Shown here piece after piece: positions 10,296 through 56,132 of a stretch of 64,000 nt of DNA (position 1 is the stretch's first letter; the number at the start of each line of letters is the position of its first letter). The notes under the pieces were generated by a model, which ran no database searches, was not told the origin of the DNA, and saw nothing but the letters and a program-made list of their open reading frames with translations. Source of the DNA: Tillus elongatus. Taxonomy: Eukaryota; Arthropoda; Insecta; Coleoptera; Cleridae. The stretch lies in the NCBI GenBank assembly GCA_964006375.1, contig OZ023269.1, positions 3,038,001-3,102,000 on the forward strand. The letters are read 5' to 3'. A program made the position numbers and the translations under genes.

Positions 10296-10402
10296 TTATT
10301 GTTAATACCGTCTTTAAAGTAGCTAAAAGCTGTTATTTTACTAAGTGCAACTATCAGTAAAAACAGTTACACCTTTCGATCTCCTGGCTACTGTACATTA
10401 CA

Positions 10403-13290
10403 ATGACTAACTACACACAAACCCACGGTTCTTCTCAGAACCAAAAGACCAGAAATGTTGGACCCTCAGTCCGAATTTGCCAGTTAAACATTGAAGGCAC
10501 AAGCAGAGCCAAATGTCAATACTTATCCAAACTTTTACAAGATAACGATATTGACCTGATCGTCGTCCAGGAGACTCATCTGAAAGACGAAAAAGAGCTC
10601 CGCGCTAGAGGCATGATTGCGGGCTATAAAGTTCTGGCAGCAACTTACGACCGAGCGTACGGTATTGCCACCAACATACGAAACACAGTTGAGAATGCAG
10701 TACTGATAGATGAATCCATCACCAACAATATCCACGTAATCACTGCCCAGTTAGGAGAGGTAGCAATTACAAATGTCTACAAGCCCCAAATACGCAATGG
10801 CCTCAAGACGTCCTACATCAACGTAATCATCCAGCGGTCTACATTGGCGACTTTAACAGCCATCACCAGAAATGGAAGTATCAAAGCAACGAGATGAATG
10901 GCGAGCTTCTAATCAGATGGGCCGAAGATCATAACTTACACTTAGTATTCGACGCGAAAGATCAGGGAACATTTAAATCTGATGCTTGGCAAAGAAAGTA
11001 CAATCCCGACCTCTGCTTTGTCTATAAAGACAGAACCAAGCTTCCACTAGTGACTTCACGTAAGGTGCTCCCTGACTTTCCACAGAGCCAGCACCGACCC
11101 GTCCTCATCTAGATTGGTATTCAGGTTCCCTTGGTGTCGTCTATTCCCCGACCACGCTGGAACTTTAGCAAAGCAAAAATGCCTCAGATTTATCTCACCA
11201 ACGAGCGCAAACAACAAACAATTTGTAGGCTTGGTACCAAGTACATCCAAGAACACCATCTCTAGAGGCTACTGAAAGTAATATATCCCTGGCTGTAGTA
11301 ATACAAGCGAAACCCTTCACCAAGAGTTTATTGAGAGTGGTGACCAGGAAGTGGCGGACGAACTCCTACATAGTCTGGAAGCTGCACGCAGACTAAAGTG
11401 GTCCGAAACAGTTGAGGCTATGGACTTCAAACAACCCAGCAGGAAAGTATGGTCCCTCCTACGTAAACTGGGGAGTGGTAGTGTGCCGATCCGTGACAAC
11501 CCTGTCGTAACGCCAAATGCTGTTGCCTCACATATTGTCTCTATTCTAGGGCTCCCAGAGACCGAGAACACACTACCCAAGTTAAGAGGGAGTGCAAGCG
11601 CCTAAAAGCCGTCACCGATTTGCAGTCAGAATACTTTCGGCCCTGCACCCATGAGGATATTACAAAGGCACTGGAGGATATTAGGCCGGGTAAGGCTCCG
11701 GGATTCCATGGCATACACCTTGAGTTTCTAATAAATCTAGGAAGAGACGCCCGTGGCTGGTTGGCTAGGCTCCTCACTAACATTCTAAATGCAGGAATTA
11801 TCCCTCGCTTATGAAAACAAACAAAGACACTTGCGATTCTAAAACAAGGAAACCAAACGACAGGCCAGAGAGCTAGCGCCCCATCGCGCTCCTAAGTACT
11901 AGTTACAAACTATTAGAACGGCTTTTGTACAACAGCATAAGCCCAAAGATCCTAGAAAGCCTACCAGTTGAGCAGGCTGGATTCACACCGGGGCGAAGCT
12001 ACACCGACCAGGTCCTGTCACTTACAACCCATATAAAGGTCGGGTACCCGATGCAGCTAAAATCATCTGTCGCATTCATAGACCTAACTGTGGCATATGA
12101 CACCGTTTAAAAACAAGGACTGCTCTACAAACTCCTTCTTCAAATACCCTGCAAAACAACTGTGGGACTAATGGATAACATGCTGAGCACTAGATTGTTC
12201 CGTGTCCTCATGGGAAATGCTCTGAGCGATTGGAAGAAACTTAATAACGGTCTACCTCAGGGCTAGGTTCTGGCTCCACTCCTGTTCAAATGTTACCTCG
12301 CCAATATGCCCACAACAAGATCCAGAAAATTTGGCTATGCTGATGACTGGGCAATAGCAACCAGAAGCAAATCAATGGAAGAAACAAATGAAACGCTAAC
12401 TGACGATCTGGACACCCTGGGGAAATACTTCCGCAACTGGAGACTTCAACCTAGTGCAGGCAAGACGAAGGTGGCATGCTTTCACCTAAACAACCGCATG
12501 GCTCAATAGAGAACTCAACTAGTACTTCGGTGACAAGGCTGCTTCACCATAACCGATACCCTAAATATTTAGGAGTAACTTTTGATATAACTTTATCCTT
12601 CAAACAACACCTAACTAAAACTGCCTTAAAGCTCAAAACAAGAAATAACATCATACAAAAACTATGCGGCACTTCATGAGGTTTCTCCGCTGCCACGCTT
12701 CCATGCTCCGCCTCAGGACTCGTTTACTCTACGGTGGAGTATTGTACTCCGGTCTGGCAAAACAGCTCACATGTTAAAATGATCGACGTCCAATTGAACC
12801 ATACGATGCGCTTATTCTCGGGCACAATCAGAGCTACACCAGGTTACTGGCTACCAGTTCTGAGCCACATTCCACTCCCAGCGATACGGAGATCCACTGC
12901 ACTTCTCAGATAGTACAACAAGATTCTTCAAAACCCACAACTACCAATAAACACATATATCAATGACATAGGAAGGAATAGGCTACGCTCAAGAAAACCC
13001 CCAATCAGAACAACTGGAGACCTGGCGGCTGATGACTTTAATCCAATAAACGAGTGGAGGCGAAATTGGACCGAGACAGCCCAACCGAAGCTCCACAACA
13101 TGCCGTGCATGACAACTACTCCAGCCGGCTTCGAACTACCACGCAAGACATGGACAACACTTAACCGGATTAGAACCAACCATGGCAGGTGTGCCGATGC
13201 CTTCTACAAGTGGAACATAATACCCTCCCCACAGTGTGACTGAGGTGCTGAAAGGCAGACGAACCGCCACATCACGGAACATTACAACCT
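10403..13290 (+). pseudogene. Non-LTR retrotransposon ORF2 (endonuclease + RT), broken
   Basis: Most of a LINE ORF2 is present. The N-terminus begins MTNYTQTHGSSQNQK and leads into the endonuclease: SVRICQLNIEG, then VVQETHLKD, GDFNSHHQKW after a frameshift near 10840, and SQHRPVLI near 11088-11112 in place of the usual SDH. RT follows: DIRPGKAPGFHG at about 11660-11710, EQAGFTPGRSYTDQV at 11970, catalytic motif FIDLTVAYD at 12075-12100, LPQG followed by an in-frame TAG near 12265, and the catalytic box FGYADDWAIA at about 12330-12360. The C-terminus has a Cys/His cluster (QCD, then HITEH) at 13230-13285, with a TGA where a Cys or Gly codon is expected. Frames change at least six times. The sequence resembles Jockey/CR1-group elements of invertebrates. 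Confidence 0.85.
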
Positions 13291-19858: not shown

Positions 19859-21560
19859 CTATAGTACCGTGGGTGTCGACAAGGAGGAAAGAGGCAACTT
19901 GTTAATTCTGGACTTGAAGGTTTGGAGGTTCGGAGGAGAAGGAAATACATGTGCCGGCAAGGAATTCCACAACTTGTAAGTCCCAGGGACAAGAGAGTGG
20001 ATATAACAAGATGTTTTATGGCTGGTGACCTGGACAGTAAAAGGGTGCATTCGCTCTGTTCCCCTGGCAGATCTGTGGGGGGCAGCAGGTGGAGGGACTA
20101 TGGAAGAAAGCTCATCTGAGCAATGCTTGTGCAGATATCTATTAAAGAGAGAGAGAGAGAGAGAGAGAGAGGGCACCAACGGCACGTCGGTGGGCAACGG
20201 ATGACAGCCTTTGGGTGAGGGCAGGGTCACCGATAAGACGTATAGCTCTCTTCTGAATGGGGTCCAGGATAGCGAGTGTAGAAGCGGCAGCGGTACCCCA
20301 GATGTGGAAGCAGTATTTGAGGTTTGGTCTTATTTGTGAAGTATATAACGTATAGAGATTAGCTGGTGAAAAGTATTTGCGAGCCCGGAAGAGGAAATCT
20401 AATTTCTTAGCAGCCGCTTCTGCAATTGATGTGACATGTTGGTGCCAATTGAGATTTCGATCCACAGAAATGCCAACTAGTGAAAAGGACTCATTATTTT
20501 GAATAACTTGGTTGTTCATTGTGATGGGTCTAGGGCTGGTGTATCTCTCATGACATAGACTGAAATTTGGTGGGGTTGAATGGAACAAGATTTCTACTTC
20601 CCCAGTAGGGGCTAAAGCTGAATCTTGAGGGACTCCTGCATTAATTGGATACAGTTTAGAGGAATGGCCATCCACGACAACAGAAATGCTCCGGTTGGAG
20701 AGGAAATTTGCTGTCCAGGTACAGAGTTTTGGTGGTAGGCCATACGTCGGAAGTTTATTAAGCAGCGCTGCGTGCCAGGCCTGGTCTAATGCTTTGGATA
20801 TGTCTAGAGCGGCAATCTGGGATTCCCCGTGTAGTTCCATAGACTTGTTCCAAGAATGGGTGACAAAGGAAAGGAGGTGGGCAGTTGATCTACGCTGAGG
20901 GAATCCATACTGCCTGTCGTGGATTAGACTGTGTTTTTCCAGAAATTTTAGCAATTTGGTGTTTATATACTTTTCCATCACTTTAGAGACGACTGAAAGG
21001 AGAGAAATAGACCTGTATTTGCTAGGAAGTGCTTTGGATCTTTTACTGTGGACGAGTTGTACTCGAGCAGTTTTCCAGTTATTAGGAAATATGCCTCTAT
21101 TGTAAGATGTCTAAAACAGACGAGTCAGGACAGGAGCAAGTTCTGGTGCGCATTTTTTGTCAACAATTGCTGGGATCTCGTCAAGACCAGAGGCTTTCCT
21201 GGTATTAAGAGAAGAGAACATCTTTCGTATCTTTTTAGTTTTGAAAATGATATCCGTCATTTTATAAGCGACATTAAGGACTGTTGGTGGTTGAACATTT
21301 AGAGGTGGGTTGTGATTCGAATTGCGGGCGAACAACGAGGCAAAAAGTTCAGCCTTGCCCGGGGTGGTGAAAACATTTCGTGCCCTGAAACAAGAGATGG
21401 GAACGTGCTCTTGCAGAAATTATTCCCAACAGATACATGTTGTGTTGGGTACCAGAATCTGAGAAAGCAACGATTTAAAATATGGACTTTCCAGGAAAAG
21501 AGAGCAGTTGTCTTTCATTGGGGTTATATGTTCTGTAGCTCCAACCCTGGTCTTTACCGT
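19859..21560 (-). pseudogene. Non-LTR RT with catalytic core deleted
   Basis: Read right to left, this is the second half of a LINE ORF2. RNARKASGLDEIPAI-type sequence begins near 21335, followed by GIFPNNWKTARV-like and SISLLSVVSKVMEKYI sequence. One long frame (20981-20142) continues with HDRQYGFPQRRSTAHLL, the motif A region ALDISKALDQAWHA, and NAGVPQDSALAPT. It then jumps to GEVEILFHST and the thumb (LVGISVDRNLNWHQHV), so the YADD catalytic box is missing. A (GA)n expansion at 20146-20171 shifts the frame, and the C-terminus continues to 19859 with YKLWNSLPAHVFPSPP. The closest resemblance is to insect I/Jockey-group LINEs. A second 3' fragment of the same family lies at 25423-25905. Confidence 0.85.
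20145..20172. repeat. (GA)n microsatellite
   Basis: GA run inside the LINE pseudogene. It encodes SLSLSL on the minus strand and causes a frameshift relative to the C-terminal segment. Confidence 0.95.
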
Positions 21561-22450: not shown

Positions 22451-22640
22451 TTTATTAAATTTATCTCTACGCTCGTGCTGCCTCTGGTGTAAGGGGTTGT
22501 ATCGTCGGCGAACCGTACTACGAAATGTACATTGTCAAGTAAATAAATAATATTAAAGATACCAGGAGAGGACCAAAAATGTAGCTCAGTGGTATTCCAC
22601 TGAAGTGACCCAGTCATGACACACATATTGCCTATCGTTA
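22450..22640 (-). pseudogene. LINE RT fragment, 3' side of the array insertion
   Basis: On the minus strand this encodes, in two frames, SGIPLSYIFGPLLVSLIL (the GxPQGSxLGPLLF motif, degraded) and LDNVHFVVRFADDTTPYT, which contains the FADD catalytic box of RT. Upstream on that strand the frame reads QYVCHDWVTS and runs to the edge of the 306-bp array. It continues beyond the array at 24152-24225. One frameshift separates the PLL and FADD segments. Confidence 0.75.
22628..22640. repeat. 13-bp target-site duplication, left copy
   Basis: TTGCCTATCGTTA directly abuts the left end of the 306-bp array. An identical copy lies at 24152-24164 on the other side. Confidence 0.85.
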
Positions 22641-22833
22641 AAACACTAAGGGAGTAGCGAACGTGTCGCCACCTAGTTCGGAACCAAGTACTTGTTGTCA
22701 CGCCCGCTCCAAATAATACAGAGTATTAAAAATAGAGACGGTATACAACTAACTAACAATTCAAAAAATTGTTAGCCCTGGCCCATTTCTACCCCAATAT
22801 AGGGACAAAGTATGTAAGACTAGATGCATTCTC

Positions 22834-22902
22834 GCAACAATTAGAACCGTAGACCGGTTTCGCTCTCATTAGAGCTCTTCAGTACGGCATACTAATTGCA
22901 GC
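22834..22902 (-). ncRNA. Type I hammerhead ribozyme, unit 1
   Basis: Read on the minus strand: stem I outer strand GCAATTAG, inner strand GCCGTA, core CTGAAGA, stem II GCTCT-AATG-AGAGC, GAA, self-complementary ACCGGT, then C17. Cleavage is predicted after GTC, between plus-strand positions 22852 and 22851. TACGGT then pairs with GCCGTA (6 bp), followed after a small internal loop by CTAATTG with CAATTAG (7 bp). All invariant core bases are present. Stem III is too short to close well in a monomer, as in other animal hammerheads thought to work as dimers. Confidence 0.92.
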
Positions 22903-23139
22903 AAAAATGCACCAAAAATATCACGGCTATCGTATAGCCAGTCTTAAAACACTAAGTGAGTAGCGAACGTGTCGCCACCTAGTTCGGAACCAAGTACTTG
23001 TTGTCACGCCCGCTCCAAATAATACAGAGTATTAAAAATAGAGACGGTATACAACTAACTAACAATTCAAAAAATTGTTAGCCCTGGCACATTTCTACCC
23101 CAATATAGGGACAAAGTATGTAAGACTAGATGCATTCTC

Positions 23140-23208
23140 GCAACAATTAGAACCGTAGACCGGTTTCGCTCTCATTAGAGCTCTTCAGTACGGCATACTA
23201 ATTGCAGC
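23140..23208 (-). ncRNA. Type I hammerhead ribozyme, unit 2
   Basis: Identical in core and stems to unit 1, placed 306 bp further on. Confidence 0.92.
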
Positions 23209-23445
23209 AAAAATGCACCAAAAATATCACGGCTATCGTATAGCCAGTCTTAAAACACTAAGTGAGTAGCGAACGTGTCGCCACCTAGTTCGGAACCAAG
23301 TACTTGTTGTCACGCCCGCTCCAAATAATACAGAGTATTAAAAATAGAGACGGTATACAACTAACTAACAATTCAAAAAATTGTTAGCCCTGGCCCATTT
23401 CTACCCCAATATAGGGACAAAGTATGTAAGACTAGATGCATTCTC

Positions 23446-23514
23446 GCAACAATTAGAACCGTAGACCGGTTTCGCTCTCATTAGAGCTCTTCAGTACGGC
23501 ATACTAATTGCAGC
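23446..23514 (-). ncRNA. Type I hammerhead ribozyme, unit 3
   Basis: Identical in core and stems to unit 1. Confidence 0.92.
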
Positions 23515-23751
23515 AAAAATGCACCAAAAATATCACGGCTATCGTATAGCCAGTCTTAAAACACTAAGTGAGTAGCGAACGTGTCGCCACCTAGTTCGGA
23601 ACCAAGTACTTGTTGTCACGCCCGCTCCAAATAATACAGAGTATTAAAAATAGAGACGGTATACAACTAACTAACAATTCAAAAAATTGTTAGCCCTGGC
23701 CCATTTCTACCCCAATATAGGGACAAAGTATGTAAGACTAGATGCATTCTC

Positions 23752-23821
23752 GCAACAATTTAGAACCGTAGACCGGTTTCGCTCTCATTAGAGCTCTTCA
23801 GTACGGCATACTAATTGCAGC
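23752..23821 (-). ncRNA. Type I hammerhead ribozyme, unit 4
   Basis: Same core. One extra T lies in the stem I internal loop (CAATTTAGAACC on the plus strand), which should be tolerated. Confidence 0.9.
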
Positions 23822-24065
23822 AAAAATGCACCAAAAATATCACGGCTATCGTATAGCCAGTCTTAAAACACTAAGTGAGTAGCGAACGTGTCGCCACCTA
23901 GTTCGGAACCAAGTACTTGTTGTCACGCCCGCTCCAGCGGGCGTGACTCCAGGAGCGGGCGTGACAACAAGTACTTGGTTCCGAACTAGGTGGCGACACG
24001 TTCGCTACTCACTTAGTGTTTTAAGACTGGCTATACGATAGCCGTGATATTTTTGGTGCATTTTT

Positions 24066-24134
24066 GCTGCAATTAGTATGCCGTACTGAAGAGCTCTAAT
24101 GAGAGCGAAACCGGTCTACGGTTCTAATTGTTGC
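24066..24134 (+). ncRNA. Type I hammerhead ribozyme, inverted unit
   Basis: The inverted partial unit carries the same motif on the plus strand, with CTGAAGA at about 24085-24091, GAAACCGGTC at 24107-24116 and predicted cleavage after 24116. If RNA were made across the array, this copy would be antisense to the other four. Confidence 0.9.
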
Positions 24135-24151
24135 GAGAATGCATCTAGTCT

Positions 24152-24164
24152 TTGCCTATCGTTA
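24152..24164. repeat. 13-bp target-site duplication, right copy
   Basis: TTGCCTATCGTTA, identical to 22628-22640. Confidence 0.85.
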
Positions 24165-34599: not shown

Positions 34600-35374
34600 G
34601 GATGTTAGCACTGTCGATGATATTTGCGAAGAAGAGACTGAAAATTTTAATTCATGGGAAAAGTGAAATGACGATTCCAACTGTTTCGGGAAAAATATGT
34701 ATAAGTGGTGAGTTGGTGGGTAATAAACGAACATGCAATATTTGTTTTCACGTTTATTTTACAGGCCTAGAGAGCAACTCCCTGTGAATGTTAGGAGCCG
34801 ACAGCATAACATTGTGTTGACTTTACCAGGCTTGCGTGCAAATCCAAAGCAACTTGGTCATAATCCGAAGGTTGAAGATGTTTGGAAACTTCACTTTTCG
34901 CCAAATATAACGACCGAAATTATTCGATGGACGAACATCAAAATTACGCAAGTTCGGAAAAATACATGAATCCAAGTAGTCCAATTTTATCCACCATTGA
35001 TGAAATTGAAATGGTGGCATTCTCTGGAATGCTGATTTACAGTTCTGTTTTCAAGTCGGGTAATGAGAATATCGATTACTTATTTGCAACAGATGGCACT
35101 GGACGAGACGCTTTCCGTTGTACAATGCCAAAGCCAAAGTTTATATACCAAAAAGCCAGCTCGATACGGCATCAAAATCATATGTCTGACGGGTGCAAGG
35201 AACAATTACCTCCCCAATGCGTACATCTACACTGGCAAGGGTTTAGACTCTATTTTCTTAGCATCACCTAAAAAGATGCTAAATATTTCCGCTCAAGTTG
35301 TCATAAGGTTATTGAAGCGCATCCAGAAGACCAATAGGAATATTGCAGCTGAGATTTGGTTCAGTTCTTTGTAA
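34600..35374 (+). pseudogene. piggyBac-like transposase with internal deletion
   Basis: Frame segments at 34733-34969, 34882-35271 and 35063-35374 together resemble a piggyBac transposase different from the one at 54206. The N-terminal part reads LPGLRANPKQLGHNPKVEDV, then NIDYLFATDGTGRDAFRCTM. The sequence then skips the central region and resumes at KKPARYGIKIICLTGARNNY, NAYIYTGKGLDS and NRNIAAEIWFSSL. In the last block Asp-Asn of the usual TADNWFSS is Glu-Ile, so the second catalytic Asp is lost. No C-terminal half or Cys-rich domain is seen. The element is truncated and dead. Confidence 0.8.
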
Positions 35375-53909: not shown

Positions 53910-56132
53910 TTAACCTTCATCTGCATGACAGGGTATCTGGGTACCCAATTCTGTTTTAAAAGTGATGTTTTTATTTGTTAATGTTGATATTTATGCCTAA
54001 GGTGTTGTGACCTCTCAGAATTCATTATAAAAAACCATTTTGTGCCAATGTAGTATTTTTTATAACTTTTGAAAATTATATAATGTACATTAATTTTTTT
54101 ATACTTATTCCTCACATCAGGGGTACCCCGGTACCTACTAAAATAAACATGTATTTTGTTGCAAATCTTCAACTTTCGGGCACAGTAATAAAAAATTAGC
54201 ACTCTTTATTTGAAAAAGCATATTAATTTTATAATATTTTTTATTACAATAATTCTTCTATAGTTTGCAATATTTGTTTTCTCACAATGTTCGTCGCATA
54301 TTGGGCGGCTACAAACGTCACACGATTTTCTGTTTTTTCTCTGTATTTTTGTAGCAGCTCGACACACGTAGCATTTACCTGTTACTGGAAGGCGTCGGGT
54401 TTTATCTCTGGGATGATTCTTTTCTACAACCGGTGGGGGCAGTTGGTATGCTAATGGACCTCCTAACATGCACTCACAAAAAAAATATACATATACAAAA
54501 AAAAACATGCACCCAATTCCCGATTTGGTACTAAAATGTTGTAACACCTTTGGTGATTTGGCTCTCAATTCTATGCTCGGTCTAGATAATTGCTTTCCAA
54601 GTTCTTGAAGAAATTTTCCACGATATTTTTTTTTCTTCTGAAGAGGGTTATTTTCAGTATAAATAATATATGCTGCTAATCCTGCTATATCAAGCATGTT
54701 ATAAAACATTGCAAGAGGCCAACGGTTTGTTCGACGTTTGACAGAGTAGTGCGACACCATCTTATCCATATTATCAACACCACCTTTCCCTGAGTTGTAA
54801 TAATTGATTATTTCAATTTTTTTCTTTGGACCAGATACATTTGCAGTGTCGTGCATTGTAGATAAGAGTATTGCAGCTTTTCCCTGTTTTGGTACGTATG
54901 AAACCAGTGTCATATTATCCTCAGAAAATCCAAACGTAGAAGAATGTTCTTCCCTACTTTTATTTGCCAACATCTCTAGCGGTATATAAGGTTTATTTTT
55001 TTTAGCGTACCCACAACAGAAAGTTTTCATGACATTAGAAACCGAGGCTAAGGGAAGTGTGGTGAAAAAATTATCCATCATAACATTTCTCCCACTATTT
55101 TTATAATGAATGCATAAATCTTTTACCACACGCTCACCTTGATTTTGTTCACGACTTTGCGATGATTTCCCTGTATAAATTTGCCCCACAAGAGGGTAAG
55201 AATTAGCTGCATCGCACACCCACCACATTTTTATACCATATTTGGCAGGTTTGGCTGGCATTTACTGCGTGAACCTGGTCCTATCTCTATACGGAAATAG
55301 TTGTTCCTCTACCGTTAGGCATTCAGACAATGTATAATTCAGTTTCAAATTTTGCATCAATAGAAGCCAAAGTTCTAAGATATCAGCTGCTTTATCAGTT
55401 TTCAATCTATCGGTTCTGGTATTCATATTGTCAAAGCGTACAAATCTTTGGATGGAATATAATCTGTTGACTGACATTGTCGTACGGTACAATGGGTAAC
55501 CATCACTTTTCCACAAGTCTCTCAGATTTTCTTTCTTAGACTGTCGCACTCCAGCAGTAATCAGTATCACGAGATAACCATCAAATTCTTCTTGTGTGAG
55601 AGGTTTCCAAATTTTTGGTGGTTTGTTGGAATGCTGTTTATTCCACTCCGCGTGGATGGTTTTGGCTTTGCGGTTTGTTTCTCGAATTATAATGTTGCAC
55701 ATTTCTGGAGCAAAAATGCGTGCGAAAGTTACCCGAACTGAGAGAGAATTTGCTGTCTTCAAAGGCCCAGATTTTTTTCGCAAAATATTTTGTGACAGCG
55801 TTTGACGAGCAGGCATTGGGGGACTGGTTTTCCAGATAGTCCCGATTTTAAAACGCAAAACTAGGTCAGTCATCACAATTATCAACCTCAACCTCTAGCT
55901 GCTCATCTTTAGCATTGTCTTCCTCGGCAATTTCAATTTCATTCTCAGTGTCAAGCAAAACATCTTATATGTCTGATTCTTCTGCTTGATTATTTGTTGA
56001 TGACAACAAAGACGGTAAATATTCGTCTTCTGATTCAGAGTCTTCAATTTGTTCATTGTCGTTATCACTCTCTGAATCAGATTCCATAGCATTTAATTCC
56101 TGAAGATAACTAACTTGCCGTTCATAACTCAT
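53910..56132 (-). mobile_element. piggyBac element, nearly full coding region
   Basis: A TTAA at 53910-53913 is followed by CCTTCATCTGCATGACAGGG and TATCTGGGTACCC, resembling a piggyBac terminal repeat. A related subterminal GGGGTACCCCGGTACC lies at about 54120. The transposase reads leftward from about 56132 and ends at 54206. I could not find the matching 5' terminal repeat to the right, so that end may be lost or diverged. Confidence 0.7.
54206..56132 (-). pseudogene. piggyBac transposase (stop-interrupted)
   Basis: An N-terminal acidic region (MSYERQVSYLQ, then a Ser/Asp/Glu-rich stretch) is followed by a TAA near 55965 and a frame change near 55895. One frame then runs 55891-54206, broken only by a TAA at 55262-55264. 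Before that stop, GVRQSKKENLRDLWKSDG and RFVRFDNMNTRTDRL are typical of the family. The first catalytic position reads TVEEQLFPYRDR, where VDEQL is usual, so Asp is Glu. After the stop, PAKPAKYGIKMWWVCDA, NVMMDNFFTT (second Asp) and KGGVDNMDKMVSHYS (third Asp) are kept. A Cys/His-rich C-terminal domain (CYVCRA ... CDVCSRPICDEHC) is intact. It is recently inactivated compared with most elements here. Confidence 0.9.

Follow-up and report, generated by a model that had tools for sequence, protein, structure and literature searches.

A two-armed hammerhead retrozyme insertion with Penelope-like ends in the beetle Tillus elongatus

Introduction

This study asks what kind of element occupies positions 22641–24151 of a 64,000-nucleotide stretch of the Tillus elongatus genome (the window, meaning the whole stretch of DNA that was analysed), and how it came to be there. 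A preliminary description had recognised a 306-bp tandem repeat with a hammerhead ribozyme in every full unit, and had proposed an animal retrozyme family with RNA that cuts itself into monomers. Penelope-like elements (PLEs) have been put forward as a strong candidate for the mobiliser of metazoan non-LTR retrozymes, because the two coexist, because both occur as tandem copies and because both carry hammerheads (PMC7229834, in the portion of the text available). The ends of this copy, of its relatives and of the PLEs in the same genome carry most of the argument below.

Results

The insertion in the window

What occupies the locus is a single insertion of an animal non-LTR retrozyme, non-coding and 306 nt long; elements of this kind are already known. 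The tandem repeat was recovered as claimed, with a period of 306 bp and 4.2 copies (22638–23936), but the structure is more than a tandem repeat: the insertion has two arms, and its ends resemble those of PLEs. Positions 22641–24151 are an exact insert between two copies of TTGCCTATCGTTA (22628–22640 and 24152–24164), a 13-bp target-site duplication (TSD). With position 1 of the unit set at the base following the hammerhead cleavage site, the long arm (22641–23936, minus strand; about 4.2 units, the putative first cDNA) has its outer end at site B (unit 214) and its inner end at unit 141, while the short arm (23952–24151, plus strand; the putative second cDNA) is an inverted part-unit with its inner end at unit 142 and its outer end at site A (unit 36). 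This short arm makes up the final 200 bp of the insert and is joined to the long one head-to-head through a 15-bp fold-back filler (23937–23951). As an inverted repeat it was delimited at 23952–24152, the last base being a 1-nt overlap between unit and right TSD; the left TSD shares 3 nt of microhomology with the unit (22638–22640). Both outer starts (unit 214 and unit 36) differ from the cleavage site. The two inner ends fall at adjoining unit positions, 141 and 142 (chance about 1%), and this was taken as coincidence because the inner ends of the other copies are distributed over the unit (KS p 0.12).

No coding frame of at least 150 aa (stop to stop) starts or is contained in 22641–24151, and no frame of that length in the insert combines reverse transcriptase and GIY-YIG domains, so the insert itself is not a PLE. 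A search of the 64-kb window for a tRNA gene, which bears on the idea of a tRNA-like promoter, gave none. The unit has a GC content of 0.41 (under 50%), and folded as a circle it reaches a predicted −103.1 kcal/mol, compared with −71.3 (SD 4.9, z −6.5) for 100 dinucleotide shuffles. The proposed assignment to an animal retrozyme family was borne out by the type I hammerhead, the 306-bp unit, the low GC content, the tandem and dispersed copies, the TSDs and the coexisting PLEs; the element belongs to the animal retrozymes, with an amphibian-like stem III.

Elsewhere in the window there are LINE fragments, at 20142–21110 (minus strand) and 10361–11109 (plus strand), comprising an RVT_1 frame, with the best named relatives of the RT from Callosobruchus beetles, and endonuclease frames. 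Pieces of DDE_Tnp_1_7 transposase, which we take to be piggyBac-like, are present as two adjoining frames and one separate fragment (54206–55894, minus strand, and 35036–35371, plus strand).

Other copies and the rule governing their ends

The search for further copies that the preliminary description had recommended gave 183 unit matches in the 1.72-Gb assembly (30 contigs). Scoring covered the best 40 of 686 first-look candidates and the list of matches is incomplete, which biases the sample towards young copies. Examined were 34 loci, namely the window and each of the 33 other distinct loci among the matches listed, three of them completed with further stretches, and segments below 94% identity (old copies in L024, L036 and L044) were excluded from the end counts. 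Three loci on contig C10 (L017, L018 and L027, 14.04–14.92 Mb) have a common target and TSD, TAATACTTAATTA, and look like segmental copies of one insertion because target and TSD are identical; the arm lengths of L018 differ from those of the other two. With L018 and L027 counted under L017, the 34 loci represent 32 independent insertions.

Two arms were present in 28 of the 32 (a sample from the best 40 of 686 candidates). In all 27 complete two-armed insertions, one outer end lies at unit 35–47 (site A) and the other at unit 203–218 (site B), and neither an A/A nor a B/B insertion occurs among these 27 copies, again from the best 40 of the 686 candidates. The expectation at random, with equal odds, is 0.5^27 = 7e-9, the site windows having been set from the same data. 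Median starts are 38.5 (A) and 208.5 (B) when half of the microhomology is trimmed. The exception, L038, is two-armed with ends at 207 and 280 and lacks a convincing TSD. Four insertions are one-armed (L030, L032, L042 and L045, starting at 41, 37, 208 and 39), and L045 has no clear TSD. TSDs of 9–15 bp (one mismatch allowed) flank 24 of the 27 two-armed copies; those of the remaining three are 16–20 bp long, and two of these three lie in simple repeats. Each of the 27 has at least one arm longer than a unit, and in 18 both arms are longer, the measured extents ranging from about 0.3 to 10.8 turns of the unit (longest up to 3,293 nt, in L035).

The target flanks of the 27 insertions show a symmetric tendency, with A and then C or G before the TSD and a GTTA-like sequence after it (G in 12, T in 15, T in 13 and A in 17 of 24 at the first four bases), which may represent the cutting preference of an endonuclease. 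Old copies (L052, L053 and L054; 78–90% identical) lie within a few kilobases of young ones, possibly through clustered insertion.

An older subfamily was sought with a query about 79% identical to the window's unit, and the best 40 of 6,653 first-look candidates gave 39 clusters. The A/B arrangement was found in all eight clusters in which both ends could be classed (best 40 of the 6,653). The remainder combine an A end with a query-limit end (9), a one-armed end (7) or an unclassed end (5), or a B end with a query-limit end (2) or a one-armed end (2), with six others. An unclassed end occurs in eight clusters and may reflect decay, unlisted short matches or true exceptions. TSDs of 8–14 bp flank six of the eight A/B clusters, in two cases with a single mismatch. 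Seven of the eight have TCAC at site B, and in three the full TCAC-N3-GTG precedes the match end.

A probable common template for both arms

Divergence between arms averages 0.0071 within a locus and 0.018 between loci, and none of 10,000 permutations gave a value as low (25 loci in which both arms reach 150 nt or more, L041 taken as it stood before completion). Variants of an insertion recur across its units and in both arms: non-reference states are common to the two arms at 9 of 9 positions in L047, 7 of 7 in L041, 6 of 6 in L039 and 4 of 4 in L037. The fit is imperfect, the nearest arm being the locus's own (ties included) in only 16 of 25 loci. Misfits are mainly short arms, which carry private changes, and in L035 an insertion sets one arm apart from the other. 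On this evidence from the copies themselves, a monomeric RNA circle would be the best explanation of the shared variants.

A poor fit to a strictly monomeric template comes from G90A, which is mixed within the arms of six loci (L017, L022, L031, L032, L044 and L045). This mixing speaks for another template, a linear multimeric transcript of one array, copied by the PLE machinery. An array made from one RNA is homogeneous and its transcript would be homogeneous too; an Anolis PLE also used unprocessed RNA in vitro (PMC11167929, in the part available). This alternative is nevertheless unlikely. Arms of up to 3,293 nt would require RNA carrying many uncut hammerheads, and most within-arm variants are confined to single units of one arm, with no ordered pattern common to both. 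The circular monomer is thus retained as the preferred template.

The predicted hammerhead ribozyme

A strict descriptor identified five type I hammerhead motifs in the window, four on the minus strand and one on the plus strand. The first three copies lie at 22830–22900 (C3/C17 at 22882/22852, with cleavage predicted after C17), 23136–23206 (23188/23158) and 23442–23512 (23494/23464); the fourth, at 23749–23818 (23801/23771), has one additional base in stem I, and the fifth is the plus-strand copy of the inverted arm, at 24068–24138 (24086/24116). No motif was found in the window outside the array and the inverted piece, nor in 60 first-order Markov windows of 64 kb. The complete hammerhead ascribed to the array units was therefore found in four out of four, with each part named for it (CTGAAGA, a 5-bp stem II with an AATG loop, GAA, ACCGGT, the GUC triplet and a stem I of 6 plus 7 bp), and the copy in the inverted piece, which had escaped mention, adds a fifth. 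Comparison with Rfam covariance models, also suggested beforehand, gave a divided answer: the gathering score was reached nowhere in the window, but all five copies were significant against Hammerhead_HH9 (29.7–30.4 bits against a gathering score of 52; E values 3.6e-5 to 5.8e-5 in a 1.7-kb search and 0.0014 to 0.0022 in the full window). Matches to MIR1861 and mir-4526, likewise below gathering, arise from the fold-back and were set aside.

The ACCGGT segment is self-complementary. It cannot form a loopless 3-bp stem within one molecule, where helix III would be a single A–U pair around CCGG, and the predicted ribozyme is therefore likely to work in dimeric form. Stem I contains an internal loop, and loop 2 is 4 nt long. 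The core elements CTGANGA and GAA each occur in 46 of 47 aligned sequences, and in old copies the hammerhead segments are the best conserved, the stems and GAAACCGGTC scoring 0.92–0.97 against a mean of 0.853. Self-cleavage into 306-nt monomers, as originally proposed, is plausible.

Could the hammerhead be inactive, the copies spreading by another route? The Rfam scores below gathering would allow it, as would the one-pair intramolecular stem III and the fact that the lowest-energy fold of the isolated motif (−31.0 kcal/mol) is not the catalytic one (−12.8 kcal/mol). The idea is improbable, however, given that the motif is conserved in the copies and that efficient cleavage by dimers is described for amphibian hammerheads whose stem III is just as weak (PMC7229834, available portion); a double-hammerhead fold is moreover possible (−45.9 kcal/mol), though the lowest fold of two copies lies at −67.1. 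An active, probably dimeric ribozyme remains the preferred reading.

Outside animals, the hammerhead pattern had no matches in prokaryote genomes and was matched in seven viral contigs, six of which fail the structural descriptor; the one that passes the strict descriptor is IMG/VR contig IMGVR_UViG_3300037485_002668 (L001).

Penelope-like elements of the same genome

GIY-YIG frames are abundant in the genome (14,221 first-look candidates, of which 150 were scored, all those listed over the cut-off). Open frames with RVT_1 and GIY-YIG domains are present in L077 and L068, and the frame of L077 has named relatives from Aromia, Molorchus, Tribolium and several mosquitoes, among others. By sequence, the PLE frame has no match among solved structures. 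The terminal sequence was found in 16 of the 21 loci searched for PLE ends. In all eight two-armed PLEs, one arm stops at site 1 (...CCAAGTGTACTTAT) and the second arm reaches site 2, having an additional tail of about 34 nt. Seven of the eight have TSDs of 11–13 bp, three with one mismatch and one of these three in a simple repeat, and L062 has no TSD. L076 consists of a single arm with a deletion in its tail, which the script scored as short. PLE hammerhead cores lie upstream of site 1 (87 nt before it in L077), and the order of elements is alike in retrozyme and PLE: hammerhead, then site 1 or A, then site 2 or B. In many copies among L057–L078 the core is followed by the self-complementary ACGATCGT, and PLE hammerheads may therefore also work as dimers via stem III.

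The resemblance may extend to an end motif. PLE tails end in TCACATAGTG in L072, L075, L076 and L078+L068 and in TCACTTAGTG in L066, the rest being variants with further changes. Unit positions 199–208 of the retrozyme read TCACTTAGTG and end at 208, the peak of site B, so that the site-B 10-mer agrees at 10 of 10 positions with one PLE copy (L066) and at 9 of 10 with four others. The next best place for the PLE tail motif in the retrozyme unit has three mismatches. The chance of such a match is about 4e-6 (the per-register chance times three), uncorrected for the choice among PLE variants. In old retrozyme copies the motif is unremarkable in conservation (0.87, rank 155 of 306). Site A has no clear counterpart in the PLE ends, and no longer homology to the retrozyme was found in L077 and L078+L068. 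Retrozyme-like fragments near L059, L067 and L072 were considered as PLE terminal repeats and rejected; they match three distinct regions of the unit and seem to be separate remnants of some age.

These ends bear on the idea that a LINE mobilises the retrozyme by target-primed reverse transcription, with twin priming yielding the inverted arm by chance. LINE twin priming does give inverted arms between TSDs (PMC2837659, available part), and LINE fragments are present in the window, yet this reading is very improbable: the retrozyme ends have constant positions inside the unit, each of the 27 insertions having one A end and one B end, and the end rule, with what may be the same end motif, recurs in the PLEs of this genome. 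Growth of the array as satellite DNA by unequal exchange, with the hammerhead as a relic, has so little probability that it can be dismissed, for although the tandem units are of satellite size and certain hammerhead repeats were initially classified as satellites (PMC7229834, as far as available), what was found is not long head-to-tail arrays without TSDs but short two-armed inserts dispersed in the genome, contradicting it by their TSDs, and with the hammerhead the best conserved part of old copies and its core parts each in 46 of 47 sequences. Insertion of the Penelope type, with head-to-head arms and one arm per internal start site, describes 27 of 27 retrozymes and 8 of 8 PLEs.

Sites A and B in the predicted circular fold

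In the predicted fold of the circular unit, sites A and B face each other across one helix, with pairs 39:209 (P 0.63), 36:213 (0.95) and 35:214 (0.97). Of nine units folded, including some that share about 79% identity with the one in the window, eight show the pairing at least partly; it is partial in L054plus and absent in L054minus. Double changes that keep the pairing were seen at 33:216 (5 of 47 sequences) and 43:205 (2 of 47), in related copies and so not as independent events, and over five pairs of the helix there are 10 broken cells in the 47 aligned sequences. The positions of the A and B ends correlate weakly (raw r −0.42, p 0.03; after trimming r −0.13, not significant). The idea, suggested by one locus, that RNase III-like cleavage of this helix gives rise to the 3' ends was dropped.

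Discussion

The preferred interpretation, which we regard as likely on the sequence footprints, is that a PLE protein copies a single RNA circle, starting at both ends of a break in the DNA. Transcripts of a genomic array would be cut by their own hammerheads and closed into circles. A Penelope-type protein, with reverse transcriptase and GIY-YIG endonuclease, would make a staggered cut in genomic DNA, offset by about 12 bp as the TSDs suggest. Both DNA 3' ends would then serve as primers for reverse transcription of a single RNA, the first entering at site A (unit ~39) and the second at site B (unit ~208). Each cDNA would then travel round the circle for about 0.3 to 10.8 turns before the two were joined head-to-head. 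From the insertions we thus infer ribozyme activity, circularity, use of the PLE protein and simultaneous cDNAs from one molecule. With no more than moderate confidence, this can be taken further: the circle may be a dual-entry template on which the two reverse transcriptases of a PLE complex, each primed from a different end of the DNA break, enter at the facing sites, move round the circle one behind the other and make both arms at once, retrozymes may be the SINEs of Penelope elements, and the PLE tail may follow from the same rule of one end per site.

Among PLEs, in the available text, the Anolis PAc protein cuts and extends both strands and begins synthesis internally, at two sites by which the tail is delimited (PMC11167929). 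Adineta Penelope has inverted repeats arranged head-to-head, with palindromes where they join, and its TSDs measure 8 and 9 bp (PMC3846280). The retrozyme shares with these elements (same portions of PMC11167929 and PMC3846280) the hammerhead, the TSDs, the head-to-head repeats and the two internal starts, palindromic junctions and a 30–40 bp tail completing the comparison. It differs in that PLEs encode reverse transcriptase and endonuclease whereas the retrozyme is non-coding, and in the spacing of the start sites, 34 nt in the PLEs of this genome and about 169 nt in the retrozyme, although the latter are paired in the predicted fold. The Anolis protein in vitro used start sites that were alike on both strands, and hammerhead mutants were without effect on insertion (PMC11167929, available portion); both results are counted against the circle model with one site per end.

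Compared with metazoan retrozymes as described in the available part of PMC7229834, the agreement includes a type I hammerhead in tandem repeats of 150–450 bp, low GC content, TSDs (>4 bp), absence of LTRs and coexisting PLEs. What differs is that the ends are mapped here, to two fixed starts, one per target end, with head-to-head arms and a PLE-like motif; the terms 'inverted' and 'head-to-head' are absent from the main text of that paper, its supplement aside. The newt and axolotl hammerhead repeats covered there are similar in their units of about 330 bp, their one-base-pair stem III with a palindromic tetraloop and their dimers, but their hosts are vertebrates and the present one is an insect (PMC7229834, same portion). 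Dolichopoda pDo500 is likewise an insect hammerhead repeat, with a proposed double-hammerhead form. Stem III of that dimer is intrastrand and stems I and II are interstrand, whereas here the shared helix would be stem III (PMC2837043, available part). No account of retrozymes with twin priming or head-to-head arms was found in the literature searched, which covered the main texts of mostly non-subscription papers. The insertion end rule and its match to PLEs are new here, without a claim to priority.

The footprints tie retrozymes to PLEs by an end rule and a similar end motif, and suggest a small RNA circle as the template. They also yield an exact prediction, namely that synthesis starts at two positions, one for each end of the DNA, on the two facing strands of a single helix. 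If this is true, retrozymes would be to PLEs what SINEs are to LINEs, and the end rule would likewise explain why one arm of a PLE insertion has a tail.
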